DNA of 64,000 nt from positions 248,001 through 312,000 of the forward strand of contig NZ_JACPYU010000010.1 of NCBI RefSeq assembly GCF_016195855.1, given 5' to 3'. Shown piece after piece: positions 42,456 through 63,109 of this stretch (position 1 is its first letter; each line of letters opens with the position of its first letter). The position numbers and the translations under genes are program-made. This DNA comes from Aquabacterium sp. GTDB lineage: Bacteria > Pseudomonadota > Gammaproteobacteria > Burkholderiales > Burkholderiaceae_C. The notes beneath the pieces are model-generated. The model had not been told where the DNA came from. It searched no databases and saw only the letters and a program-made list of their open reading frames with translations.

Positions 42456-43445
42456 ATGCGTGACACCGACCTGTCCCAGTGGATACACGATCACATCTTT
42501 GACGAGGGCAGCCAGCAGGCCGAAACCCGCACGCGGCTGGTGATGTGGATCACGCTGGCCATGATGGCCCTGGAGATCACCGCCGGCTGGTGGTACAACT
42601 CCATGGCCTTGCTGGCCGATGGCTGGCACATGAGCTCACACGCCGTGGCCATTGGCCTGAGCGCCTTTGCCTATGCTGCAGCACGCCGCTATGCACGTGA
42701 CCCGCGCTTTGCCTTTGGCACCTGGAAGATCGAGGTGCTGGCGGGTTTTGCCAGTGCGGTGTTCCTGGTGGGCGTGGCGGGGGTGATGGTCTTCGGCTCG
42801 GTCGAGCGCCTGCTGACACCTGAGCCCATCCACTACCGCGAGGCCTTGTTTGTGGCGGTGATCGGGCTGGTGGTCAACCTGGTGTGTGCCCTCATCCTCG
42901 GTGGTGCACACGATCACCACCACCATGATCATGGCGGGCACGGGCACCATCATGGGCACGACCACGGTCATGCACACCACGATCACGATGCGCATGAAGG
43001 CCATGGGCACCAGCATGACCTGAACCTCAAGTCAGCCTATGTGCATGTGCTGGCCGACGCGGCCACCTCGGTGCTGGCCATCCTGGCGCTGATTGGCGGC
43101 TGGATGTACGGCTGGTCCTGGTTGGACCCGGTGATGGGCCTGGTGGGGGCGGTGCTGGTGGCCGTGTGGGCCAAGGGTTTGATCATCGAGACCGGCAAGG
43201 TGCTGCTGGACCGCGAGATGGACCACCCCGTGGTGGACGAGATCCGCGAGGTGATGGCCGAGCTGGATGCCCATGCCGACAGCCACCTGACCGACCTGCA
43301 TGTGTGGCGGGTTGGCAAGGGCGCATATGCCTGTGCCTTGACCGTGGTCACGGGCGACAAGGCCCTGACGCCCGCCCTGATCCGGGAGGCCTTGAAGGTG
43401 CATGAAGAGATCGTGCACGCCACGATCGAGGTGCATCACCGCTGA
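42456..43445 (+). CDS. dmeF: Cation diffusion facilitator, DmeF-type
   Basis: 329 residues from the ATG at 42456 (AAGAAGGAC). CDF core with HMSSHAVAIG and the second-site D...D pattern (HVLADAATSVLAIL), six helices, a long His-rich cytoplasmic loop (HDHHHHDHGGHGHHHGHDHGHAH) and a C-terminal metallochaperone-like domain. It exports divalent cations such as Co2+, Ni2+, Zn2+ or Mn2+ by proton antiport. Co-transcription with the Mn exporter suggests overlapping metals. Its last 37 bases are duplicated exactly at 49214-49250. Confidence 0.92.
   Translation: MRDTDLSQWIHDHIFDEGSQQAETRTRLVMWITLAMMALEITAGWWYNSMALLADGWHMSSHAVAIGLSAFAYAAARRYARDPRFAFGTWKIEVLAGFASAVFLVGVAGVMVFGSVERLLTPEPIHYREALFVAVIGLVVNLVCALILGGAHDHHHHDHGGHGHHHGHDHGHAHHDHDAHEGHGHQHDLNLKSAYVHVLADAATSVLAILALIGGWMYGWSWLDPVMGLVGAVLVAVWAKGLIIETGKVLLDREMDHPVVDEIREVMAELDAHADSHLTDLHVWRVGKGAYACALTVVTGDKALTPALIREALKVHEEIVHATIEVHHR
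43409..43445 (+). repeat. 37-bp direct repeat, left copy (3' end of dmeF)
   Basis: The 3' end of dmeF including its stop codon (from GATCGTGCACGCC to CACCGCTGA) is repeated exactly at 49214-49250. The two copies flank the lipoprotein and M50 protease genes, spaced 5,805 bp. This is the intact-gene side. Confidence 0.95.
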
Positions 43446-43493
43446 GCGGTGGCTCAGCGGCGCCCTGTATCGTGGCGCCTCATGAGCGGCACA

Positions 43494-46331
43494 CTACTGG
43501 CGGATCACCTGCATCGTTGGGGAGATGCGCTTGCGCGGTGTGCTGATCGATTGAGACTGAGCACGTTTGCTGGTGGTTTGGGCACTTGAGGGCGAACCTG
43601 TATTTGAGGGCGCGACGGCCGACGAGAGCAAGATCGCTGCGACGCCACGCGGACCCAGAACAAAAGCTGAACTTCCTGTGGGGTCGCTCACCACATGGGC
43701 CACATGCTTACAGCTCTCTCCAAGTGCGAAAGTGCCTGTGCAGCCCAGCGCGTCCGGCAGGCTGATGGCGCCCGTGATCCTGGCGCCGTTCGGCACGCTG
43801 ATCGTGATGCCTTGCAGGTCAACGATCCACACTGTCGCCTCCCGTGCTCGGTCACCACTGGGCTCGCTGGTGATACGGTATCCGTAGATCAGCGCGTAGT
43901 GTCCATCTGGTGTCAAGCCGTAGCCGCCTGCCACGTGTGTTGAGGGCAGCAGTGTCGACAAGCTGGGTGTGGTGATGTTGTTCCACATTTGCAGGACACC
44001 GTCAGTGCGCAGAAGGATGGCGCCATCGTTGCTCACGGATGCCAATTGCTTGCCTGCCGGCAGGTAGCCTGCGTCGACCCATGCGCCACCCCGGTCGGCG
44101 TAATACGCCCACATCTTGCCGTCCGGATCGACCGAGTAAAGCATCTGCCCCCCGGGGCTGGTGACCATGCCCGATCCTGCCAAGGTGCCGGGGAACGTGC
44201 GGGTGCGGCGATCTGGCTCAACTTGATGGGGCGCCAAGGCCAGATCCCAAGCGGTCATGCTGGAGCCATAGCTGCCGTCGCCACCCGCAATCCAGGCCAC
44301 GCCGTGTTCCGCGGAGGTGCCCGATACACTGATGCTCGCAAACGTTTGGCCGTCCTCCAGCAGTGTGAGCGCACGCATGGCAACGGGGGTTTGTGCGTCA
44401 AAGGCGACGCCGGTCATCAGGCCATCAAGATGGGTATAGCTGCCCTGATTGATGAAGGCCAGGCTGACCGGGTCGAATCCTTTGATGAGGTTGTTCGACG
44501 CGACATACAGGCGAGACTCGTCCGGGTTGATGGCAGCATCCACGATCCCATCGACAGAGGCTTGAGTGAGTTGCCACGTGGCGCCATCATGAGACCAACG
44601 CCAGACTTGGCCTGCACCAGACCAATAGAGAGCGTGCAGTCCAGGCACATATTGAGCGGGCCTGTATTGCGCATAGGGCAGTGACTGGTAACCGGCTGCA
44701 ATGGCTGTTGGCATCGCTACCCTGACGCTGGCCTGGCTGGACTCCAGATTGGTTTGCCAGGATGCCGTGATGGCTTGCCCGGCTTGCGCGCCGCTCACGT
44801 CCAGCACCAAAGTGCGGTTGCCCGGCAGAATGGCCGATTTTTCTACGACCGCGCCAGTCACGCGTAAGTAGCCTGCGGCCAGCAAGGTGGCGGAGTCGAT
44901 GCTGGGATCAAACTGGCCTGCGATGTAAATGCGCCCTCTGCTGCCCATCAACGTTCCGCTGGCAACCCGTTGAAGTCGAGAAATCTGATTCAGAAGTCTG
45001 ACGTTCACGGTAACCGGCAGCAGGCCTGGCCGGTTGATGCTCACGTCAATGGCATCGGCCTGCATGAGTTGCCGTTGACTCAAAGCGAACGCCTTGTCCA
45101 CCTTGAACGTCAGCTCGTCGACACCCGCGGCGCCGGAGCTTCGGGTCAGGGTGACCCATGGCACCTTGGCGATGGCTGTCCAGGTGGTGGGCGCGTTATC
45201 GTAGACGGTGACGGGCATCGAGAAGGACAGGTCCGCTTCGGTGCTGGTTTCCGTCAGCGCGACACCAATCAGGGGGGCCCACTTGCCTACGCCAAATTGG
45301 CCATTGACTGATGCCGTCAACTGGACATCCACATTGCCTGTCGTGGGGCCGGCGCTGAACCGCAAGGTGTTCTGATAGTTGTCGACGGCGACGTTGGCCC
45401 CATTGATCAGCACTTCGTACTCGTCATTGCCCAGATCTCGCAGGCTGAATACGCTGTCTGCGTTGAGCAATTTGGGGCTGATCCATTGCGATGTCCAGGT
45501 CGGGCGCGTCACCTTCACACGTGTCGAGGCGCTCTGGCCCTGGCGGATCACGGTGAAGGTGCTGCTGGGGTCGGCTGTCAGGCCAAGCTCGCCGCCGATG
45601 GGCGGCTTCACCGTGTAGGTGACATTCAAAGAGGCTTGGTACAGACTGTTTGCCTGCCCGGTCAGGACCACGGTGCCGGTGTAGACCCCCGCCTTGACTT
45701 GCGTGGTCTGGATCGTCAGTTGGTTGCCCGACAAGGATGCCGTCATGGCCTCGGGCGTCAGTGTGCTCAACTGCACCGTGACCTGTCCGGCCTCTGCAGG
45801 AATCTCAACGGGTACCGTCTGGCTGGGGGCTGCATCACGTCCTGTGCGTTCCAGAGCCAGGGCGGGCTGGACATGGATATTGGGCTTGACGACGTAGTGA
45901 ACTGGCAAACGCGCGGGGCTGTTGGGAAACTCGGACGCGCAGCTTTCGTCCCGGCACAGATGGACCAGGATGGCAGAGTCATATGACCCCGGAGGCAGTT
46001 CTTTCCTGAAGGTGAGCTGCAGGGTGAATTCGTCAAAGGAGGGGAAGCTGGGATCACCGCTCTCGATGATGTTGCCTGTTTCTTCCACCCCGATCCAGAG
46101 GTCGGCAGACGAAGGGTTGGTTACTTTGGTGGTCATGGTGGCTACGCCTTGGCCTCCCTCAATGACGGAAGCATTCAAGGTGTCCACACTGAACGCCAGT
46201 GTCACGTCGTTGCCTTGAGGTGCTTGGGCAGACGGGGTTGCACCCGCTGTTGAGCCACCGCCGCCGCCGCCACAAGACGCAAGCAGTACCGTGGAGATCA
46301 GGCCGATCGCCACGTAAACCATTTTCTTCAT
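43494..46331 (-). CDS. Large secreted lipoprotein with Ig-like and beta-propeller-like regions
   Basis: 945 residues from the ATG at 46331. A type II signal peptide (MKKMVYVAIGLISTVLLASC) is followed by a Gly/Ser linker. About residues 40-480 are repeated beta-sandwich segments (TVKPPIGGELGLTADPSSTF and similar), while the C-terminal half alternates short beta motifs with Trp (WSGAGQVWRWSHDG; DESRLYVASNN), like a beta-propeller. It should be anchored to a membrane and face the periplasm or surface. No enzyme motif seen. It lies divergent from the M50 protease inside the repeat-flanked segment. The function is unknown. Confidence 0.8.
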   Translation of the reverse strand: MKKMVYVAIGLISTVLLASCGGGGGGSTAGATPSAQAPQGNDVTLAFSVDTLNASVIEGGQGVATMTTKVTNPSSADLWIGVEETGNIIESGDPSFPSFDEFTLQLTFRKELPPGSYDSAILVHLCRDESCASEFPNSPARLPVHYVVKPNIHVQPALALERTGRDAAPSQTVPVEIPAEAGQVTVQLSTLTPEAMTASLSGNQLTIQTTQVKAGVYTGTVVLTGQANSLYQASLNVTYTVKPPIGGELGLTADPSSTFTVIRQGQSASTRVKVTRPTWTSQWISPKLLNADSVFSLRDLGNDEYEVLINGANVAVDNYQNTLRFSAGPTTGNVDVQLTASVNGQFGVGKWAPLIGVALTETSTEADLSFSMPVTVYDNAPTTWTAIAKVPWVTLTRSSGAAGVDELTFKVDKAFALSQRQLMQADAIDVSINRPGLLPVTVNVRLLNQISRLQRVASGTLMGSRGRIYIAGQFDPSIDSATLLAAGYLRVTGAVVEKSAILPGNRTLVLDVSGAQAGQAITASWQTNLESSQASVRVAMPTAIAAGYQSLPYAQYRPAQYVPGLHALYWSGAGQVWRWSHDGATWQLTQASVDGIVDAAINPDESRLYVASNNLIKGFDPVSLAFINQGSYTHLDGLMTGVAFDAQTPVAMRALTLLEDGQTFASISVSGTSAEHGVAWIAGGDGSYGSSMTAWDLALAPHQVEPDRRTRTFPGTLAGSGMVTSPGGQMLYSVDPDGKMWAYYADRGGAWVDAGYLPAGKQLASVSNDGAILLRTDGVLQMWNNITTPSLSTLLPSTHVAGGYGLTPDGHYALIYGYRITSEPSGDRAREATVWIVDLQGITISVPNGARITGAISLPDALGCTGTFALGESCKHVAHVVSDPTGSSAFVLGPRGVAAILLSSAVAPSNTGSPSSAQTTSKRAQSQSISTPRKRISPTMQVIRQ

Positions 46332-46542
46332 ATTCCACCCTGAAAATTGCGCGGGCCAGCTTGCATGACGCAACCAACAGCCCATAGGTGATTATCCGGC
46401 GGCGCGGATCGGCACTCCACACCGCGAACGAGCGGTCATTCTTCGGACGAACAGGCCGCCATGCCGGTCTCATCCAGGGGCCGCAGGTGGCTTAAGGATT
46501 TTTTCAGACGCATGTTCGCCCAGGTCTCCATCAGTGCGGGCA

Positions 46543-46560
46543 CTCAAATTGAGAATTGAG
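46543..46560. promoter_or_regulatory. Palindrome and extra half-site before the M50 protease gene
   Basis: CTCAA, A, TTGAG (46543-46553) followed by another TTGAG (46556-46560). It lies 38 bp before the protease start in the divergent intergenic region; possible operator. Confidence 0.35.
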
Positions 46561-46597
46561 AGATGATCGACTGCATGACGTTAGCGGGGATGGGCAG

Positions 46598-49186
46598 ATG
46601 GATGAAGTGTTGAGATGGGCGGGGGTGCTGCTCTGCATCTGGTTCGTATATCAAGGCATCATCCTGATGACGGTTCTGGTGCAGCTGCTGCGTACGCCTG
46701 TGACGCCTGTCAAGGTGTTGCTGGACTTTGATGCGCCAGCCAAGGTCGACCTTTTGACGTCTGATCAGCAAGCCTGGTTGGATGAGTTGCGGGACCTGGG
46801 CTTCGAGCTGATGTGGTCGGGGACGATGGAGCGGGGACTGAGCGCGCGGCTCGATCCCATTGCGGTGGCTTATCTGCAGCATCGAGACGAGCCTGTCATG
46901 GCGACGGTCACGTTCTGTGCATCGCTCCTGTCCATTTATCCCGTGCAATTTGTCAGTGAGGACGCCCAGGGGCGCTTGCTGATCACCCAGAACCGCCTTG
47001 GTTTCATGGGGCTGTCGGGCAGCGATGAGGCATTGGTCAAGGATGTCTACTTGCCTGCTTTGGCCGATCACCTGGCTGCCCATCGTGAACGATTGGATCC
47101 AGCCGCCCAGCCGTTGATGCAACCGGCGGCAATCCGTCGCATGGCTGAGCGCATGGCCGGGCGCGCGGAAGCCTGGTTTGATCTGCAGAGGCAGCGCGGG
47201 CAGTTGGTGTCCGGTGGCGATGGCTGGCACTATGGCTTGATGCCCGCCATCCGAATTGCCTGGGCCATGATGCGTGTGCGTCGCCAATTGCTGCGTCCTT
47301 ATCAAAGTCGGGTGACGCGAGGCCAACATCAAGCCAGCTTCCTGGCGCAGTGCTATCTGTTCAATGAACAACTGCTGTCTTCGCGGCCTGCGCGACACAA
47401 CGTGAAGGCCGCAGTGCTTGTGCTCTCGATGGGTTTGACCCTGGTGTTGTGGGGTTGGGCATTCGATTGGGTGCAGGCTCTGGCCTTGATGGCCATCCTG
47501 TTGGTGCATGAGGGTGGTCACGCGCTGGCCATGCGCTGGTTCGGATGGAAGGACATGAGCATGTTCTTCGTGCCCTTCATGGGGGCGATGGTCACAGGGC
47601 GGCCCGCCAGCATTGCGGCCTGGAAGCAAGCCATCGTGCTGCTGGCAGGCCCGATGCCTGGCCTGCTTGCTGGTGCCGCCTATTTGTACTTTGTGCCCCC
47701 CGTCCCTGATGCGGCCATCGACTGGCAACGCGTGGCGAGTTTGGCGGTGGCGATCAACCTCTTCAATCTGCTTCCATTGAGTCCCCTGGATGGCGGGCAG
47801 TTGATTGATGGCATCGTGTTCCGGCGCTGGCCCCGGATGCGAATGGGGTTTGTATGGATGAGTTGGCTGGCTTTTCTGGCGATGGCGATCTACACAAAGC
47901 AGCCCGTGTTCTGGGGGTTGCTTGTCTGGTTGGGGATGATGCTGCCCGTGCTTTGGCGTGTCAGCCGAATCGACATGGAAGCTGAAGCGGGCCAGGATCT
48001 GTCGATCCGGGTGAGGGCGCTCTTCGAACAGGCCCGGACGCTTTTCCCAACCGCCAACGCATTCAGGCTGCATGCCATCGTCAAGAGCCTCATCGAGCGC
48101 AAGATCATGAGCGCGCCACGGTGGTGGGAAAGCGCCGGGGTGCTTGGCGTCCTGGTCGCGGTCTGGGGAGGCTCGGCACTGGGCTATGCAGGTATGGTGA
48201 GCAATGACACTGAACTGGGCGATCACCTCACGTCTGCGCAGCGCCATTTTGACCAAGCCTGGTACCGCGATTTTGGCGATGCGGTTGATGCGGACAACTT
48301 GAAGTCCGTTCAGGATGCGGCTCGTGGCTTGGAGCCCAAAGATCCGAGGTTGTTTGACCTGGCGGTGAGGGAGGCTGAAGCGCTGCCCTTGTTGCTGCGC
48401 CGTGATCGGCTTGCTGCGCTGGTGAGATCGGGGCGAGACGGGCAGCACGAAACCGCATCCGGTCTGTTGTCCAATGAGCTTGACCGTGTGTGGAGAGAGG
48501 TTGGTGCACAGCCGCCCGATGAGCGGGTGCCCGCGATGCGGGATGCCGTGGCCTGGGCTGAGCAAATCAGCCCTAAGGACTTGCGCTCGACAATCGATTT
48601 GCGATTACGTCTCATCGAGGCGGATGACGAAAGAGGCAACACCGATCAAGCTCGCCAGGCTTTGGAAGCGCTGCGTGAGCGCGCCGAGCATGACGAGGGC
48701 TGCCGTTGTGCCATGCGCCCCATCATCCGCGCGCAATCATGGTTCTACATGAGCCATGGCGATGCACCGCAGGCTTTGCGCGTGTTGGAGACTTCGCGCT
48801 ACATCCAGGGCATTTTGGGGCGGCACGACAGCCTGTCGATGGACTATGGCTGGATGTTGCTGTTCAATGGCAAGACGCAGCCAGGCATCAAGATGATCAA
48901 GGCCGCGGCGTATACGGCGCCTTACGATCCAGATTGGGTGTCTTGGCTCAAGGGGGCCAGATCACACCCGGCTCAGATCGACAAGGCTTTGGATCTGGCG
49001 TATGCGCTCAAAATTGCGGGTCAGGACGGGGCGGTTCATGCCGTCTTAAACGGGGATATGGCCTCCTTTGAATGTGCACAAGCGACTGGCGGCCGCTTGT
49101 ATGAGGACCGTTACCCATGGCAGCGTGAGCGCGATCGCTTGCTGAAAGGCATCGCGCTGGCCCATTGTCGCCCGGTACGCGATTGA
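46598..49186 (+). CDS. M50-family (site-2-protease-like) membrane metalloprotease
   Basis: 862 residues from the ATG at 46598. Membrane segments flank the zinc motif HEGGH (about residue 304-308) and the second motif LSPLDGGQL (about 397), both typical of M50 intramembrane proteases; further helices follow, then a cytoplasmic or periplasmic C-terminal 350 residues with helical repeats resembling TPR (LRRDRLAALVRSG, LIEADDERGNTDQARQALEALRERAE). A long N-terminal soluble part precedes the protease. It may cleave a membrane-bound partner, possibly the divergent lipoprotein's regulator; this is inference. The gene belongs to the repeat-flanked 5.8-kb block. Confidence 0.85.
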   Translation: MDEVLRWAGVLLCIWFVYQGIILMTVLVQLLRTPVTPVKVLLDFDAPAKVDLLTSDQQAWLDELRDLGFELMWSGTMERGLSARLDPIAVAYLQHRDEPVMATVTFCASLLSIYPVQFVSEDAQGRLLITQNRLGFMGLSGSDEALVKDVYLPALADHLAAHRERLDPAAQPLMQPAAIRRMAERMAGRAEAWFDLQRQRGQLVSGGDGWHYGLMPAIRIAWAMMRVRRQLLRPYQSRVTRGQHQASFLAQCYLFNEQLLSSRPARHNVKAAVLVLSMGLTLVLWGWAFDWVQALALMAILLVHEGGHALAMRWFGWKDMSMFFVPFMGAMVTGRPASIAAWKQAIVLLAGPMPGLLAGAAYLYFVPPVPDAAIDWQRVASLAVAINLFNLLPLSPLDGGQLIDGIVFRRWPRMRMGFVWMSWLAFLAMAIYTKQPVFWGLLVWLGMMLPVLWRVSRIDMEAEAGQDLSIRVRALFEQARTLFPTANAFRLHAIVKSLIERKIMSAPRWWESAGVLGVLVAVWGGSALGYAGMVSNDTELGDHLTSAQRHFDQAWYRDFGDAVDADNLKSVQDAARGLEPKDPRLFDLAVREAEALPLLLRRDRLAALVRSGRDGQHETASGLLSNELDRVWREVGAQPPDERVPAMRDAVAWAEQISPKDLRSTIDLRLRLIEADDERGNTDQARQALEALRERAEHDEGCRCAMRPIIRAQSWFYMSHGDAPQALRVLETSRYIQGILGRHDSLSMDYGWMLLFNGKTQPGIKMIKAAAYTAPYDPDWVSWLKGARSHPAQIDKALDLAYALKIAGQDGAVHAVLNGDMASFECAQATGGRLYEDRYPWQRERDRLLKGIALAHCRPVRD

Positions 49187-49213
49187 GTGGCGATTGGTCA
49201 CCTCATCCTGGAT

Positions 49214-49250
49214 GATCGTGCACGCCACGATCGAGGTGCATCACCGCTGA
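49214..49250 (+). repeat. 37-bp direct repeat, right copy (dmeF 3' end)
   Basis: Exact copy of 43409-43445, but without the rest of dmeF before it. It lies 27 bp after the stop of the M50 protease gene and marks the right edge of the putative insertion. Confidence 0.95.
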
Positions 49251-49325
49251 ACTGGTTGCGCACCAAGGGCTTTCCTGTTTCACGCCTTGTGCCTAAGATG
49301 AACGGATGGCAGCAGGAGCTTTGTC

Positions 49326-49580
49326 ATGGACCATCAAGTCACCCACAGTGCGGATCAGGAGGAAGCCATCGGTGCCCACAGCGGGTTTCGCATCCGCGTG
49401 GTCACGAGCTGGGATGCGCCGGCGCGTCAGTTTGTGGTCAAGGCCTATGTGCGTGGGTCCGAGACGGAGGAAGAGGTCGCCATGGACACGCAGGGGCGGC
49501 GCTTTGCGCTGATTCAGGATGCCCAAGACCATGGCTTTGCCGCCGCCATGGAATGGATCGATCAACAAGGGCGCGCCTGA
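49326..49580 (+). CDS. Small conserved-type hypothetical protein
   Basis: 84 residues from the ATG at 49326 (AGCAGGAGCTTTGTC precedes it): an acidic N-terminus, a beta-rich middle (FRIRVVTSWDAPARQFVVKAYVRGSE) and a C-terminal helix (AAAMEWIDQQGR). No family was recognised. It lies just right of the duplicated 37-bp repeat, so it may be the original neighbour of dmeF. Confidence 0.6.
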   Translation: MDHQVTHSADQEEAIGAHSGFRIRVVTSWDAPARQFVVKAYVRGSETEEEVAMDTQGRRFALIQDAQDHGFAAAMEWIDQQGRA

Positions 49581-49622
49581 TCGCAGACGCCTCCCGATCC
49601 TTGGCGGCCAGCCACGGTGCAC

Positions 49623-51698
49623 TCAGTCGTCGCCTGAAGCCAGCCCGGCCAGGAACAGGTCAATGGCGTCGTCATCGGTGCCGCTGGCGCCGCCCAGGGG
49701 CTCCAGCCCCTTGTCCCGGCTGAAGGCCGTGCTGAACACCTGCGGTGCCCCGCCGCACACCTCGGCCAGCACTTCACGCCAGCGCCGCAGGCGCGTGCCG
49801 TACAGCGCGGCCAACTCCGTTTCGCCGAGCCTGAATTCCTGCCCCCAGTGGGGGATGCCTTGGCGTGCGCGCGCCGCATCGTGCAACTCGGACCAGAAGT
49901 TGGCATAGACATCGTCCAGGCGTGAGCGCGGCGTGGCCACTTCGACCGACGCGGTCAAGGGGTAGCGCTGCATGGCGATCAGGGCCGAGGCCACGGGCGT
50001 GAAACGGATGCCGATGTAGCCAAAAACCGGGAAGTGCTTGCGCGCGAGCCCGATCACATCGTCAATGAAGGCGAGATAGGCGGGGCCTGCGGCATCGAAG
50101 TGGTACTCGGCAGAGTTGCCGCACTGCGCGCCGTCCAGGCCATAGTCGTGCGCATCGAGCATGTTCTGGTTGAGGCCGCCACTGGCGTGGCCAGCACGCG
50201 CCAGCTTGGCGAACGCGCCGCCGATGGCCTCGGACACGGCCTGCGCCACGTCGCTGCCTGCGTCGAGCACGCTGTCGATGGCGATCTTGTAGAGCACCAG
50301 GAACAGCTCTTCGCCGCTCGTGGCGCCAATGGCCAGGTGCTGCTGCGCCAGGTGCGCAATCTCGTGGTCCAGATACCAGTCCAGGCGCTGCTTCTTTGCG
50401 TTGTGCGTGAGCCAGCCCAGGACGTTGAGGAAGGGGTCGATTTCAAGCTGATCCTTGAGCGCGTCCACGATGCCCGGCGGGTTCTGCTTGTTGGCCTTGA
50501 CCGACGCCACCAGTTTGTCATCGGCCGCCGGGGCCACATCGTGCTCGTGCACAGCTTGCTCGCGCTTCCAGCGGCGCCGCACCCAGCAGCGCTCGGGGTC
50601 GCTCAGCGAGACGCCGATGTTCAGGTGGTGCAAGGGCATGAGCGGGCCACCGCGCAGGTCGTCGGCCAGCGCGCTCAGCTTGAGGTCGGCCAGCAGCCGG
50701 GTATAGACCTCGGGGTGTGCATCGAAGTAGGCCGGCACATTCGGCCACTTCTCGGGGCCGCGCACATAGGTGAACTTTGCGTCCTGCACGACCGCGGGGT
50801 AGTAGGTGCGCCGCAGTACCTCCGTGCGGAAGAAGCCTGCATCCAGATCACGCAAGGGCGCGTCGAACACGCCCGTGGGGCCGTTGGGCCCCAGCTGGCT
50901 GCTGAGGAGTTGCGCGCCGAGCTCGCGCCAGCGGTACTCGAAGTTTGTCTCGACGAGGGTGTACTGCTCGACGACCTCCAGAACGACCGAATAGATGGCG
51001 CCCATGCGGCCCGCGCCCAGCCGCACCGCGGCGAAGGTGTCGTCGTCTGCAATGAAACGGGTGTCCGGGCACCAACCCGGCAACTGCATGACCTGGGGTG
51101 CGAACCCCCATGCGCTGTCGCTGGCGGTGACCCAGAGCTCCCGTCCTGTCGCGCTGACGAGGTGCACCGCACGGATCCACTCGACGAGCGGTGGCACCTT
51201 CAAGTCGCCGCCATGCGTGCCGGTTGAGATGGCGCCGATCAGCGACTGGCCCGCACCATCGCCCATGGTGGGCAAGGCCAGGCCGCAGCGCGCGAGGTCT
51301 TCAAGCAGGTGGCGGATCTTGATGCCGGCCTCGACGTGCACGAAGTAGCGGCCCTGCAGGCGTGCATCACCGGCGCAGGTGCGCTCGAGCAAGTCACTGC
51401 TTGCCCGCAGCCGCTCGTCGGGCAGTGGCTGGCCGCGGTTGGGAAACGGTGCGCTGACGTGCCGCGACAGCAAGCTCGTGTCGATGACGTCTTGTGCGAC
51501 ACCCGCGCTGGACAGCGACCAGTTCGAGCCCAGCGCACGCAGGCTGCGGCCCTCGCTTGCCGCTTGCATGACCGCGGTGACCAGCCCGGCGCGATCGGCT
51601 GGCAGATAGCGCTTGGCGCCTGAGAACGGGTGAACAAACAGGAAGTCCTCAACGAGGACATTCTGCTGCGTGTCAACCGAACCGCCTGGGCAGGGCAT
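49623..51698 (-). CDS. FAD-linked oxidase (VAO/aldonolactone-oxidase-like)
   Basis: 691 residues. The FAD-binding PCMH-type fold is marked by RALGSNWSLSSAGVAQDVIDTSLLSRHV, GIKIRHLLEDLARCGLALPTMGD and the flavin-site GAISTGTHGGD (about 157-167). The C-terminal domain is large (about 400 residues) and diverges from characterised ALO, GulLO and cholesterol oxidases. It oxidises an alcohol or lactone with O2 or another acceptor; the substrate is unknown. It follows the PASTA-like gene by 28 bp, and both are divergent from the Cys-rich small protein/GRDP pair. Confidence 0.8.
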   Translation of the reverse strand: MPCPGGSVDTQQNVLVEDFLFVHPFSGAKRYLPADRAGLVTAVMQAASEGRSLRALGSNWSLSSAGVAQDVIDTSLLSRHVSAPFPNRGQPLPDERLRASSDLLERTCAGDARLQGRYFVHVEAGIKIRHLLEDLARCGLALPTMGDGAGQSLIGAISTGTHGGDLKVPPLVEWIRAVHLVSATGRELWVTASDSAWGFAPQVMQLPGWCPDTRFIADDDTFAAVRLGAGRMGAIYSVVLEVVEQYTLVETNFEYRWRELGAQLLSSQLGPNGPTGVFDAPLRDLDAGFFRTEVLRRTYYPAVVQDAKFTYVRGPEKWPNVPAYFDAHPEVYTRLLADLKLSALADDLRGGPLMPLHHLNIGVSLSDPERCWVRRRWKREQAVHEHDVAPAADDKLVASVKANKQNPPGIVDALKDQLEIDPFLNVLGWLTHNAKKQRLDWYLDHEIAHLAQQHLAIGATSGEELFLVLYKIAIDSVLDAGSDVAQAVSEAIGGAFAKLARAGHASGGLNQNMLDAHDYGLDGAQCGNSAEYHFDAAGPAYLAFIDDVIGLARKHFPVFGYIGIRFTPVASALIAMQRYPLTASVEVATPRSRLDDVYANFWSELHDAARARQGIPHWGQEFRLGETELAALYGTRLRRWREVLAEVCGGAPQVFSTAFSRDKGLEPLGGASGTDDDAIDLFLAGLASGDD

Positions 51699-51726
51699 GG
51701 GTGATCCTGGTGATGCGTCTGGCGCG

Positions 51727-52257
51727 TTACGCGAAGAGCTCGATGCTCACGATGAACAGGTCGCTGCTGGTGATGAGCCGGACCCGGTGGCCATGCGTGA
51801 ACGCGCGTTGCGCGGCCCCCAGCATCGCGCCACGGCGCATCCATTCGGTGCGGTCTGGTGGCGCGGCAGGCGCGACGGCATGGTCGAAATAGAGCACGCC
51901 GGTGAAGCTCACCGCCCCGCCGTCCATCTGCGTGTCGAACGATACCCAGGCGCCTTGACCCGAGCCATAGGGGTTGCCAATCAGCACGCTCTTGATCGTG
52001 CCTTCGTAAGTACCTGCGCGAAGCGTCGGCCCTTGCACCGAGGTGTCGTCGAGCGGGCCCATGGGGCTGGGGTAGGACACGGTGACCACGGTGAACGAGG
52101 GCACCAATGTGCCTGCAGGTGGGCTCTGCACCGTGGCGCGGCCATCGCCGTCTGCGGCGAACGGGAAGCGCGCGATGTAGCGCAGCAGGCGGGCTTGCAG
52201 CGCCGCTTCGGCATCGGGGCGGCCCATGCCAATGACGTTGGGGACAATGACCGACAT
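51727..52257 (-). CDS. PASTA-domain protein
   Basis: 176 residues starting MSVIVPNVIGMGRPDAEAALQARLL and returning with QSPPAGTLVPSFTVVTVSYP, the two ends of one PASTA domain (about 1-60), followed by a beta-rich C-terminal domain (GAWVSFDTQMDGGAVSFTGVLYFDH) that was not recognised. PASTA domains normally hang off transmembrane kinases or PBPs; here there is no transmembrane segment or signal peptide. A ribosome site (ACAGGAGG) lies just before. It is the first gene of the minus-strand pair with the FAD oxidase. Confidence 0.75.
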   Translation of the reverse strand: MSVIVPNVIGMGRPDAEAALQARLLRYIARFPFAADGDGRATVQSPPAGTLVPSFTVVTVSYPSPMGPLDDTSVQGPTLRAGTYEGTIKSVLIGNPYGSGQGAWVSFDTQMDGGAVSFTGVLYFDHAVAPAAPPDRTEWMRRGAMLGAAQRAFTHGHRVRLITSSDLFIVSIELFA

Positions 52258-52327
52258 GGCGGCACCTCCTGTCTTGGTTCACGGATCATAGGGACGCACT
52301 TCCCGCGCGGTATCCCTAGCTTGCGCC

Positions 52328-52389
52328 CCCTAGTTCAAAGGCGCTTGCCCCCAACCGTAGGGGATGCTGTGATGAGGCCCCGCTCCTAC
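52328..52389 (+). promoter_or_regulatory. Promoter block shared with the tyrosinase-VWA gene
   Basis: CCCTAG, 6 bases, GGCGCTT, 38 bases, CCTAC, the same words and spacing as 16473-16534. A GTAGGGG box lies inside where the other copy has TACCCCT-like sequence. It leads the Cys-rich small protein gene and shares the intergenic region with the divergent PASTA/FAD-oxidase genes. Confidence 0.7.
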
Positions 52390-52453
52390 GATGCCATCGA
52401 GCAAGGCGCGATGCGATCGCACCAAGGCTCACCTTAGCAAGAGGATGAACGCC

Positions 52454-52708
52454 ATGAGCAACGACAAGTTAGCGGTGCCGCTGCAGACCTTTGAAGCCGT
52501 CACGCAGCTTCGCCTTGAAGGCCTGATGCAGGAACTCACCAAGCGGGTGAGGGTGGTCAACGAAGACGCCCTGACCCATCTGATTGACCGCGGCGTGATC
52601 GCCCGCATGGCGCGTGATGGCTGCTGCAAGCCCGATGGCGGCACCTGCTGCCCCAACGCCAGGTTGCGCATCGAGCAGCCTGGGGTAGGTCCGATGGTGG
52701 GCAAGTAG
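52454..52708 (+). CDS. Small Cys-rich protein of unknown function
   Basis: 84 residues from the ATG at 52454 (AAGAGG ten bases before; ATG at 52445 is possible). The N-terminal half is helical (TFEAVTQLRLEGLMQELTKRVRVVNEDALTHLIDRGVIARMARDG), the C-terminal part has CC..CC (CCKPDGGTCCPNAR) and a disordered RIEQPGVGPMVGK end. The Cys pairs could bind metal or be cross-linked. No family known to me. It precedes the GRDP-like gene by 17 bp and shares a promoter block with the tyrosinase-VWA gene. Confidence 0.65.
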   Translation: MSNDKLAVPLQTFEAVTQLRLEGLMQELTKRVRVVNEDALTHLIDRGVIARMARDGCCKPDGGTCCPNARLRIEQPGVGPMVGK

Positions 52709-52725
52709 GCGCGCAGGCCAAGGCG

Positions 52726-53229
52726 ATGGCGACGCACCCCATGCTGAGCGACGCGCTCCTCGACGCGCCGATGCGGCATTACTTCCAGTGCAAGTTCAGT
52801 GGCCTGCCCGCGCAGGAGCTGGACTTGCGCATCGAGGAGACGCTGCGCTTCCTGTTCATCTCGCACGAGTGCACGGGCGCGATCCCCGTGTCCAAGGACA
52901 TCGACGAGGTGTGGCACGCCTGGATCCTGCAGACGCAGGAGTACGTGGCGCTGTGCGAGCAGTTGCCGACGGGGCGCTACATCCACCACAGCGCCAACGA
53001 CTACCTGCGCTACTTCGACCCTGCCGTGGGTGAGAACGACGAGCTGGAACTGAGCGTCAAGATGCTGGCGCTGTACGTGGCCAACTTCGGGCCGTTCGAT
53101 GAGGCGCGCGCCAGGCACTGGCTGCTGGCCAGCCACCTGCAGCAGCGCCTGGGGTGGTCGGTGGGCATGTTGAACGATTGGCTGCAGGCGGCGCAGCATC
53201 TTGCCAACGCGCCTGTGTGCATGGCCTAG
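52726..53229 (+). CDS. Glycine-rich-domain-protein-like (GRDP/DUF1399-type) protein
   Basis: 167 residues; the SHECTGAIPVSKDIDEVWHAWILQTQEYVALCEQLPTGRYIHH segment corresponds to the conserved D-x-x-W-H-x-H-I-L-x-T region of plant and bacterial GRDP-like proteins. The family's function is unsettled in bacteria. The domain covers nearly the whole chain. It lies 17 bp after the Cys-rich gene, likely co-transcribed, and 49 bp before the solute-binding protein gene. Confidence 0.75.
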   Translation: MATHPMLSDALLDAPMRHYFQCKFSGLPAQELDLRIEETLRFLFISHECTGAIPVSKDIDEVWHAWILQTQEYVALCEQLPTGRYIHHSANDYLRYFDPAVGENDELELSVKMLALYVANFGPFDEARARHWLLASHLQQRLGWSVGMLNDWLQAAQHLANAPVCMA

Positions 53230-53278
53230 GTGAGCCGCTGCATTGAAGTCATAATGCCCCCTATTAAGGGAGGGGCTT

Positions 53279-54067
53279 ATGTCTTGCGGTATGGGTCTTG
53301 GGGCTCAGACATTCAAAAAACGACTGAGATCGCTTTGTGTCGGCTTGTTGTCGCTGTTGTGCTTGCATGGCGCTGGGGCCAAGGAGCTGCGCATCGTCAC
53401 CATCGAGTCGGCGCCGTTTGGCTTCATCGGGAAAGATGGCAAGCCCACCGGCATGATGTACGAGATCGGCAACCTGATCGCCACGGAGGCCGGGTTCAGC
53501 TACACCAACCAGATCACGCCTTATGCGCGGTCGGCCCATGTGGTGGCGCGTGGTGATGCGGACTTCGTGTTGCGTTATCGAAGCGCCGAACTGAGCAGCT
53601 CGGCGATCCCGGTGGCTGGGGTGTTGAGCCTGCCCACCATCGTTGTGGGCAAGCCCTCGCTCAAGGTTCGATCGCTGGCTGATTTGCGTGGCAAATGGGT
53701 CGGCACGCCCAGAGGGGGGCGTTTTGATGATGCCTTTGATGCGGAGACCGAGATCCAGAAGTACCAGGTGTCCGACTATTCGCAAATGCTCAAGATGCTG
53801 ATGAATGACCGGATTGATGCCGCGCTGGGCTCATCCATCGGGCTCTTCTACAACGCGCACCAGCTGGGTATCAAGAAGGAGCAGTTGGGCAAGCCCCTGG
53901 TCCTGAGCGCCCAGACCTTCGAGCTGCATTTCTCGCAAAAGACGGCCGATGAAGAAACCATTGCGGCCCTGAAGGGCGCCGTGGCGCGCCTGAAAAGCCG
54001 CAACGACATCAGGAAGGTCGTCGACAAGTACCTGAACAGCTTTGACTGGGAAATGGTGTCCAGGTAG
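53279..54067 (+). CDS. Periplasmic solute-binding protein, family 3
   Basis: 262 residues from the ATG at 53279 (GGAGGGG ribosome site). A signal peptide (MSCGMGLGAQTFKKRLRSLCVGLLSLLCLHGAGA) precedes a typical amino-acid-binding fold (ELRIVTIESAPFGFIGKDGKPTGMMYEIGNLIATEAGF; VPIVVG-like hinge; DRIDAALGSSIGL). No permease or ATPase genes follow, so it may be an orphan or a sensor-type SBP. It is not linked by overlap to the GRDP gene. Confidence 0.9.
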   Translation: MSCGMGLGAQTFKKRLRSLCVGLLSLLCLHGAGAKELRIVTIESAPFGFIGKDGKPTGMMYEIGNLIATEAGFSYTNQITPYARSAHVVARGDADFVLRYRSAELSSSAIPVAGVLSLPTIVVGKPSLKVRSLADLRGKWVGTPRGGRFDDAFDAETEIQKYQVSDYSQMLKMLMNDRIDAALGSSIGLFYNAHQLGIKKEQLGKPLVLSAQTFELHFSQKTADEETIAALKGAVARLKSRNDIRKVVDKYLNSFDWEMVSR

Positions 54068-54094: not shown

Positions 54095-55294
54095 TCATTG
54101 CTGGAGGGCCTTGTAGACCCGTTGCTTGAGCTCGAACGAGAAGGGATGCCAGAAAGCCATGTCGCGCTGGGTCATCACCACGCCGGCGATATTGGCCCTG
54201 GGGTTGAGCCACCAGTGCGTGCCGGCCAGGCCACCCCACTGGAACTCGCTGGTCGAGCCCTGCGGGTCAAAGGGTGAGGGCATCAGGGTCACCGCGCCAC
54301 CCAGGCCATAACCTTTGCCGATCACGTCGCCAAAGCGCGGGAAGCGGATCCATTGGCCATCGGGCAACTGGTTGGACATCAGCATCGTGATGGTCGCGGG
54401 CTTGAGCAGGGCCGGGCCACCTGGCATCAGGCTGCGCAGCAGGGCCAGGGTGTCGGCCAGTGACGAAACCAGGCCGCCACCGCCGGACAGCCAGGGAACG
54501 GGCTGAAGGTTGGCTTGGGGGTAGGGCGCGTTGTCATTGCGCGTGAGGCCCGGCAGCATGGGCTTGGTGAAGTCCGCGCCCATGTAATAGGCGGCCAGGC
54601 GGTGTTGCTGCTCTGGGGGCACCACAAAGCCCGTGTCCACCATGCCCAGCGGCTCGAAGATGCGCGAGAGCAGGAAGGCATCCAGTCGCTGGCCGCTGAC
54701 CACTTCAATCAGGTGCCCGACCACGTCGGTGGCGATCGAGTACTCCCAGCCTTTGCCGGGATGGAACAGCAGTGGCAGGCCCGCCAGCGCATCGATCATC
54801 TCGACCAGGGTGCGACGGGGGCTGAGGATCTTGCGCTCGCGGTAGGCATTGAACATGAGCGTGCCGGGGTCCAGCAGGCCGTAGCTCAGGCCGGACTGGT
54901 GGCTCAGCAGGTGGCGGATGGTGATCGGGCCTTGCGCGGGTTCGACGTCATCGATCGAGGTGGCACCAGGGCGCAGGACCATGCGCTGGCCCAGTTGCGG
55001 GATGTAGCGCTCGATGGGGTCATCCAGTTGGATGCGGCCCTCGTCCAGCAACAGCAAGGCCGCATACGAGGTGATCAGCTTGCTGCCCGAGTAGATGCGA
55101 AAGAGGTGGTCCGCGCGCATGGGGTGCTGGTGCTCTTTGTCGGCCCAGCCGGCGCAGTGCAGGTCGACCAGGTCCTGCCCCAGCAGCACGGCAGAGGACA
55201 CGCCCGCGAGGATGTTGTTGTCCACATGGCTTTGCATGGCTGCGTGCAAGGCGCTGAAGTCATGGCCCTGGGGTGTCACCGTCAAACTGCTCAT
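54095..55294 (-). CDS. Serine hydrolase of the beta-lactamase/EstB esterase family
   Basis: 399 residues without a signal peptide. The SxxK motif is SGSK (about residue 69-72), followed by the YS of the Y-x-N-like box (WEYSIATDVVGHLIEVVSG) and a C-terminal WGGLAGTHWWLNPRANIAG that resembles the EstB/class C third motif. Such enzymes hydrolyse short-chain esters or beta-lactams; family members in betaproteobacteria are mostly esterases. It is convergent with the SBP gene and divergent from the acetoacetyl-CoA synthetase gene, which starts 98 bp away. Confidence 0.88.
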   Translation of the reverse strand: MSSLTVTPQGHDFSALHAAMQSHVDNNILAGVSSAVLLGQDLVDLHCAGWADKEHQHPMRADHLFRIYSGSKLITSYAALLLLDEGRIQLDDPIERYIPQLGQRMVLRPGATSIDDVEPAQGPITIRHLLSHQSGLSYGLLDPGTLMFNAYRERKILSPRRTLVEMIDALAGLPLLFHPGKGWEYSIATDVVGHLIEVVSGQRLDAFLLSRIFEPLGMVDTGFVVPPEQQHRLAAYYMGADFTKPMLPGLTRNDNAPYPQANLQPVPWLSGGGGLVSSLADTLALLRSLMPGGPALLKPATITMLMSNQLPDGQWIRFPRFGDVIGKGYGLGGAVTLMPSPFDPQGSTSEFQWGGLAGTHWWLNPRANIAGVVMTQRDMAFWHPFSFELKQRVYKALQQ

Positions 55295-62597: not shown

Positions 62598-63109
62598 GGC
62601 CATCTTGCTCATTTGCCGGTGAGTGTTCGTTAGTAGGCTGTATCGCTTTGGCGGTGCAGCGCGGGGCGCGGCCGAGGTGGCGTGCGTCCGGCTTCATTGT
62701 TGGCGGCCCCGCTTTGCAAGCGGGGCTCCCCTGCGCTGCTCACGTCAAGGTGGCGCTGGCGAACTCGCCACAGGGCCCTCGGCCCTTGCGCTCGAACAAC
62801 GCCAGCGAGTCAGAGCACGAAGCGCACTGCGTGCGCCCACCTTGGCGTTCCGCTGCTCGGCACCACCAAGGCGCCCCGCCGCATGCCACCTCAGCCTTTG
62901 ATCGCCCCGCTTGAGTGGCTCAACGGTTGCTTGCGCCGCGCAGGGCTGTCTTGCCAGCTATCGGCTCAGCCCTCACCTCGGGCAGCACCACCAAAGCGCA
63001 CCCCAAAAAAACAAGCCCACTTAGAATGTCGCCCCTTGCCGCGCCTTTCTCGCTTCCGCTTGTTGGCGCCCCGCATCCCGACTGAAAAGCAGTACCCGCC
63101 CCGCGCCCC
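62598..63109. other. Palindrome-rich intergenic region
   Basis: No gene. Between 62660 and 62890 there are several perfect short hairpins: CCCCGCTT TGC AAGCGGGG (62708-62726), TGGCGA AC TCGCCA, GGGCC CTC GGCCC, GCGCAC TGC GTGCGC, plus GGTGGCGTGCG (near 62677) facing CGCATGCCACC (near 62880) and GCGGGGCG facing CGCCCCGC. The last two pairings cross each other. The promoter of the ParB-like gene must lie in 62950-63109. Confidence 0.6.

Follow-up and report, generated by a model that had tools for sequence, protein, structure and literature searches.

Elements that integrate by means of tyrosine recombinases are, as described in the excerpts of PMC5704250, flanked by direct repeats of 8–60 bp, one of which may include the end of the target gene, so that the gene is spared. 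The same excerpts describe cis-mobilizable elements (CIMEs) as decayed integrative and conjugative elements (ICEs) or integrative and mobilizable elements (IMEs) without the genes for integration and transfer, in which both attachment sites, attL and attR, are retained. Here, a stretch of 64,000 nucleotides of an Aquabacterium sp. contig (NZ_JACPYU010000010.1; the stretch is referred to as the window) was analyzed, in which a block of 5.8 kb with two genes follows dmeF, a Co(II)/Ni(II) efflux gene of the CDF family, and is enclosed by two copies of the last 37 bases of this gene. The block is probably the product of a real, single and recent insertion beside an intact dmeF, and the event is of a known kind. 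The reading preferred here, with a probability of roughly 0.48, is the integration of a small circle at the 3′-end of dmeF by a tyrosine integrase, which acted in trans or has since been lost, leaving a CIME-like remnant. It is based on the exact repeat, the lineage-specific genes between the copies, the intact dmeF and the absence of both genes in the closest relative.

Like a CIME, the block is bordered by short exact direct repeats (37/37, att-like), one of which forms the 3′-end of the intact target gene. It contains no genes for an integrase or for transfer, only two cargo genes, and this cargo is lineage-specific. Unlike a CIME, it holds no remnant of a mobility module, its repeats are putative attachment sites, and for its site neither a second copy in the 41 other genomes of the genus nor a carrier in the viral, phage and plasmid collections searched was found. 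With IMEs and genomic islands located in the 3′-ends of protein-coding genes it shares a repeat that reaches the stop codon and an intact target gene, whereas an integrase is missing and the cargo consists of just two genes. In a limited literature search, no paper naming dmeF as an integration target was found. An insert flanked by direct repeats is also typical of a transposon target-site duplication, but no transposase is encoded by the two genes of the block according to Pfam, and the usual target duplications of transposons are far shorter than 37 bp.

The two copies were found to be identical at 37/37 positions, as had been described in an earlier note on this DNA, and to be in direct orientation. 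The bases outside the copies differ (A versus T before, G versus A after), hence the coordinates of the repeat are exact. In the whole genome (4,875,293 bases on 29 contigs; 4.88 Mb), the 37-mer occurs in two copies and no more, allowing up to 3 mismatches. The pair is the longest exact direct repeat on its own contig (C15; 357,625 bases), and by our own arithmetic about 1e-12 exact pairs of 37 bp are expected by chance in this 357-kb contig. The repeat is not a chance event. A scan of 1,557,625 bases, about a third of the genome (the whole of C15, 800 kb of C20 and 400 kb of C19), revealed it as the sole exact pair of at least 30 bp with a distance of 0.2 to 50 kb and unrelated 60-bp flanks. 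The remaining isolated exact pairs were two, of just 29 and 22 bp, and the duplication of gene ends as a habit of the genome was rejected for the 1.56 Mb scanned.

On the left, the repeat begins exactly with the first arm of a 7-5-7 inverted repeat; on the right, it runs through the stop codon of dmeF and no further (Table 1). The arms of this dyad with a spacer of 4 to 8 bases were identified at three places genome-wide, two being the repeat copies and the third having a different spacer. Copy 1 includes the gene end through the stop codon and dmeF is left whole; its product matches the NCBIfam equivalog of DmeF (9.8e-110; 366.7 bits compared to a cut-off of 250).

Table 1. Positions of the repeats, genes and other features at the dmeF locus, counted from the first base of the window.
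Feature	Position	Strand	Basis and remarks
dmeF, CDF-family Co(II)/Ni(II) efflux gene, intact, 329 aa	42456..43445	+	Pfam PF01545; NCBIfam NF033827
Repeat copy 1, att-like	43409..43445	+	Last 37 bases of dmeF, through the last base of the stop codon
Inverted repeat of copy 1, core-like	43409..43427		GATCGTG-CACGC-CACGATC; at the left edge of the copy
Large predicted lipoprotein, 945 aa	43494..46331	-	No Pfam, NCBIfam or PDB sequence match
Divergent intergenic region, largest non-coding part of the insert	46332..46597		Sequence
M50 site-2-protease-like membrane protein, 862 aa	46598..49186	+	Pfam PF02163 (3.1e-12); HEGGH, LDGG; long C-terminal extension
Repeat copy 2, non-coding	49214..49250	+	27 bases past the M50 stop codon; either the inserted copy or the original dmeF end, displaced
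Inverted repeat of copy 2	49214..49232		Genome-wide search for the dyad pattern
Second stretch, absent at this place from the closest relative (G044)	49251..53236		84-aa gene, FAD oxidase, PASTA-domain gene, 167-aa gene

Both genes of the block are intact and are encoded on opposite strands. The gaps amount to 48 bp between dmeF and the lipoprotein gene, 266 bp between the lipoprotein and the M50 gene and 27 bp between the M50 gene and copy 2. With no non-coding gap above 270 bp, neither an integrase nor a readable remnant of one would fit. The M50 protein matches the sequences of SpoIVFB structures with 1.4e-7. Matches to the lipoprotein were obtained in 4 of the 42 genus genomes (own genome counted). 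The only strong one (47% over residues 2–815) belongs to genome G002, where the gene is not located after dmeF but elsewhere, at a contig end. A paralogue with 25% identity is present elsewhere in the own genome. Matches of some kind to the M50 protein were found in 20 of the 42 genomes; outside the own genome these are restricted to residues 165–428 with 31–42% identity, and a full-length gene was not found in the 41 others. Among 399 genomes of the family, with up to two candidates scored per genome, 45 contained a match, the best non-self one showing 34% over residues 112–488. In six family genomes the matches sit in open frames of 758–973 aa, hence the long M50 protein represents a scattered family and is not unique. 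A conserved pairing of lipoprotein and M50 genes was not seen in the five loci examined, one of which reaches a contig end. Relatives of the M50 protein occur in four plasmid records, spanning 15% of its length. For the lipoprotein none was found in plasmid records, and a search of viral contigs, sensitive to close relatives only, gave no relatives of either protein.

The closest relative, G044, aligns at about 90% up to position 43449, and the alignment resumes at 53237 with 87%. It has neither the lipoprotein nor the M50 gene at this place; between the aligned parts, 1.3 kb with a different gene is found, the product of which we take to resemble a polyhydroxybutyrate (PHB) depolymerase. Because G044 aligns around the site without the two genes, the insertion probably postdates the split of both lineages. 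The proposal of the earlier note, an insertion after dmeF with duplication of 37 bp, is supported by this absence, by the lack of a full-length M50 gene in the rest of the genus and of any close relative of the lipoprotein at this place, and weakly by composition. None of the genus genomes was found to carry both genes here while lacking the second repeat copy.

The synonymous divergence (dS) of dmeF between the own genome and G044 was determined to be 0.38 (NG86) to 0.53 (YN00). Assuming equal rates of change in both lineages, about 7 or more changes would be expected in the 37 bases of a non-coding copy as old as the split, and 0 were observed. As the copies carry no changes, the duplication would be much younger than the split, unless the copy is constrained.

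Using a 31-base pattern of the dmeF end with up to 3 mismatches, matches were identified in 7 of the 42 genus genomes, with two copies in the own genome and one in each of the other six (2 mismatches in G048, 3 in G050). The first 27 bases of the repeat are identical in dmeF of G018, G002 and G004 and differ by one change in G044. Because these bases are kept, the dyad probably belongs to dmeF and predates the duplication. The same gene end was found in three named records, two of Aquabacterium sp. and one of a Burkholderiales bacterium, the own record possibly being excluded. Among the amino-acid-invariant columns of dmeF in six genomes, the codon is invariant in 74 of 230 overall compared to 6 of 8 within columns 322–331, a range chosen post hoc with codon preference uncontrolled, and this comparison was not used as support. 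Runs of invariant codons are longest elsewhere in the gene, outside the end region (8, 4 and 4 codons in the top three). In a genome of another genus of the family (G170; loci L171 and L172), a 3,787-bp exact duplication including dmeF was detected at C2:150413 and 170665, 20 kb apart, as well as a 2,269-bp exact repeat from the end of the duplication at 154198 and 178592.

According to the preferred reading, a circular DNA with the lipoprotein gene, the M50 gene and a copy of the 37-bp dmeF 3′-end would have met the 3′-end of the chromosomal dmeF. A single crossover, most likely by a tyrosine-type integrase using the dyad GATCGTG-N5-CACGATC as core, would then have joined both; the integrase would have acted in trans or been lost. 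The incoming copy would have rebuilt dmeF, the old 3′-end would have been displaced to the position of copy 2, and the predicted earlier order is dmeF followed directly by position 49251. The circular intermediate, the integrase and the direction of displacement are what we infer from the arrangement. An integrase is favored because the repeat extends exactly from the outer edge of the inverted repeat to the last base of the stop codon, and because the dyad probably pre-existed in dmeF, with two copies in the own genome and one in six others. Further reasons are the absence of both genes in G044, a composition off the contig mean and the isolation of the repeat in 1.56 Mb. The length and placement of the repeat also match those of tyrosine-recombinase elements at gene 3′-ends, as far as these are covered by the excerpts of PMC5704250.

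If the repeats are attachment sites, dmeF would be added to the conserved genes that are targeted for integration at their 3′-ends, and the block would show cargo left clean without its integrase. Otherwise, the block would be a clearly bounded insertion of two genes in which the duplicated target is unusually long. In both cases, the arrival of the two genes, which are not placed otherwise, is assigned to one recent lineage. A further-reaching version, in which a minimal two-gene cassette without an integrase moves in trans between dmeF 3′-ends and the dyad represents a novel type of attachment site in Aquabacterium-like Burkholderiales, is considered improbable.

The region downstream of dmeF is a spot of general turnover, because the content after the gene differs in G044, G002, G004 and G007; the repeat is present only in the own genome among those examined. 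In G002, G004 and G007 yet other genes follow dmeF, and a repeat of the respective dmeF end was not detected in the stretches retrieved. The turnover extends beyond copy 2: the stretch from 49251 to 53236 is likewise absent at this place in G044, which was overlooked in the earlier note. DNA relatives of its 84-aa gene with 73–81% identity are present in 5 of the 41 genus genomes besides the own one. The surroundings of these relatives (about 1.5 kb) were compared with 10 other proteins of the window, and the only match was a weak one (25%, in one genome) to the beta-lactamase-like protein. At locus L072 (G048:C399), the end of an insertion sequence (IS)-type element presumably lies within about 40 bp after dmeF, at a contig edge, which hints at an insertion-prone spot.

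Several results weigh against the integration by an integrase. As had been noted before, no recombinase is encoded in the block according to the Pfam scan; no integrase scar was found either, and the two intact genes are packed more tightly than expected of a decayed element. The genome contains seven matches to PF00589, all on other contigs and none on the own contig. The six 20-kb stretches holding these seven places gave a best site likeness of just 24/37, and related attachment sites beside resident integrases were rejected. The 37-bp site was not found in IMG/VR (exact degenerate pattern) or in INPHARED, and PLSDB gave two marginal matches of 24–26 bases (E 0.8); with no convincing match in these collections, a phage or plasmid origin was rejected as well. 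No tRNA is present in the window, and a tRNA target was rejected. A second copy of the site, with up to 3 mismatches, was not detected in the 41 other genus genomes.

The content after dmeF changes without a repeat in G002, G004, G007 and G044, hence a gain of genes there needs no integrase-type mechanism. A dmeF end joined to position 49251 and onward was not seen when 49187–53300 was compared with the 42 genus genomes (7 candidates scored per genome). Matches to the dmeF end stop at or before query base 64 and those to the 84-aa gene start at base 88 or later; as none of the alignments continues past base 64, an empty site was not seen. The empty site that the earlier note had suggested to look for in relatives was therefore not recovered, and G044 has the different 1.3 kb there. 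The downstream regions were also examined at 30 dmeF loci (own locus included; from 34 matches), among which L168 matches part of dmeF and its downstream stretch does not follow the gene end. An integrase box motif was searched in 1.5 kb downstream and gave six loci with one match each, judged by eye not to be integrase-like. The best downstream copy of a locus's own last 40 bases was 26/40 (L165). The earlier proposal of an integration at a gene 3′-end agrees with the precise borders of the repeat, but neither an integrase on the contig nor a phage, viral or plasmid carrier was found.

The main rival, and a serious one, is an insertion without an integrase, either by repair of a break near the dmeF stop codon with foreign DNA, where staggered-end fill-in or template switching duplicated the 37 bp, or by RecA-mediated entry of a transformed circle with a short dmeF end. 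We regard it as quite possible. It fits a block that carries two intact genes and hardly any other DNA, with no recombinase inside and no PF00589 match on the contig. Moreover, the region from dmeF to the beta-lactamase-like gene (54095–55294) varies in relatives without repeats, and replacement that is not site-specific seems to occur there. However, repeat edges exactly at an inverted repeat and a stop codon are not predicted by it, and 37 bp is long for a fill-in duplication and short for RecA.

A larger rearrangement, in which a tandem duplication of a segment with dmeF was followed by a deletion that left a lone 37-bp copy, is unlikely. The 3.8-kb exact duplication in G170 indicates that dmeF can be duplicated, but the duplicated part here is at most 37 bp, and two events would be needed, with both ends having to fall on meaningful borders. 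Even less probable is that the 37 bp were copied after the M50 gene for their own sake, for instance as a 3′ stem-loop stabilizing or terminating its transcript, apart from the arrival of the block. The 37-mer has a perfect 7-bp stem (−13 kcal/mol), and copy 2 is separated from the M50 stop codon by 27 bp. Strong folding (z = −3.70) was obtained for the dmeF end together with its downstream sequence (43400–43490), but this segment includes sequence absent from copy 2; the 37-mer by itself has a z of −1.57, and copy 2 within its surroundings (49180–49275) one of −1.04. In addition, there is no U-tract, copy 2 is not listed by the terminator scan, and it would be left unexplained why genes that G044 lacks lie between the copies.

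The GC content of the block was 60.6% compared to 65.3% for the contig, which is the 4th percentile of 352 windows of the same size, and its tetranucleotide distance lies at the 96th percentile of such windows. The GC content at third codon positions (GC3) of the two genes is 0.71–0.72, at the 6th–7th percentile of 256 mechanically chosen open reading frames. The lower GC bias noted earlier for the coding part of the block is only partly distinctive: the segment 36898–39311 outside of it is equally low (5th–7th percentile), and dmeF itself is at the 13th percentile. The atypical composition weakly fits a foreign origin of the block, and is not a proof since some neighboring genes are equally low in GC3.

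Elsewhere in the window, the intergenic region 62658–62917 showed inverted exact matches of 32, 24 and 20 bases to positions 411–669 at the start of the same contig (C15), about 310 kb away, and represents a repeated element.

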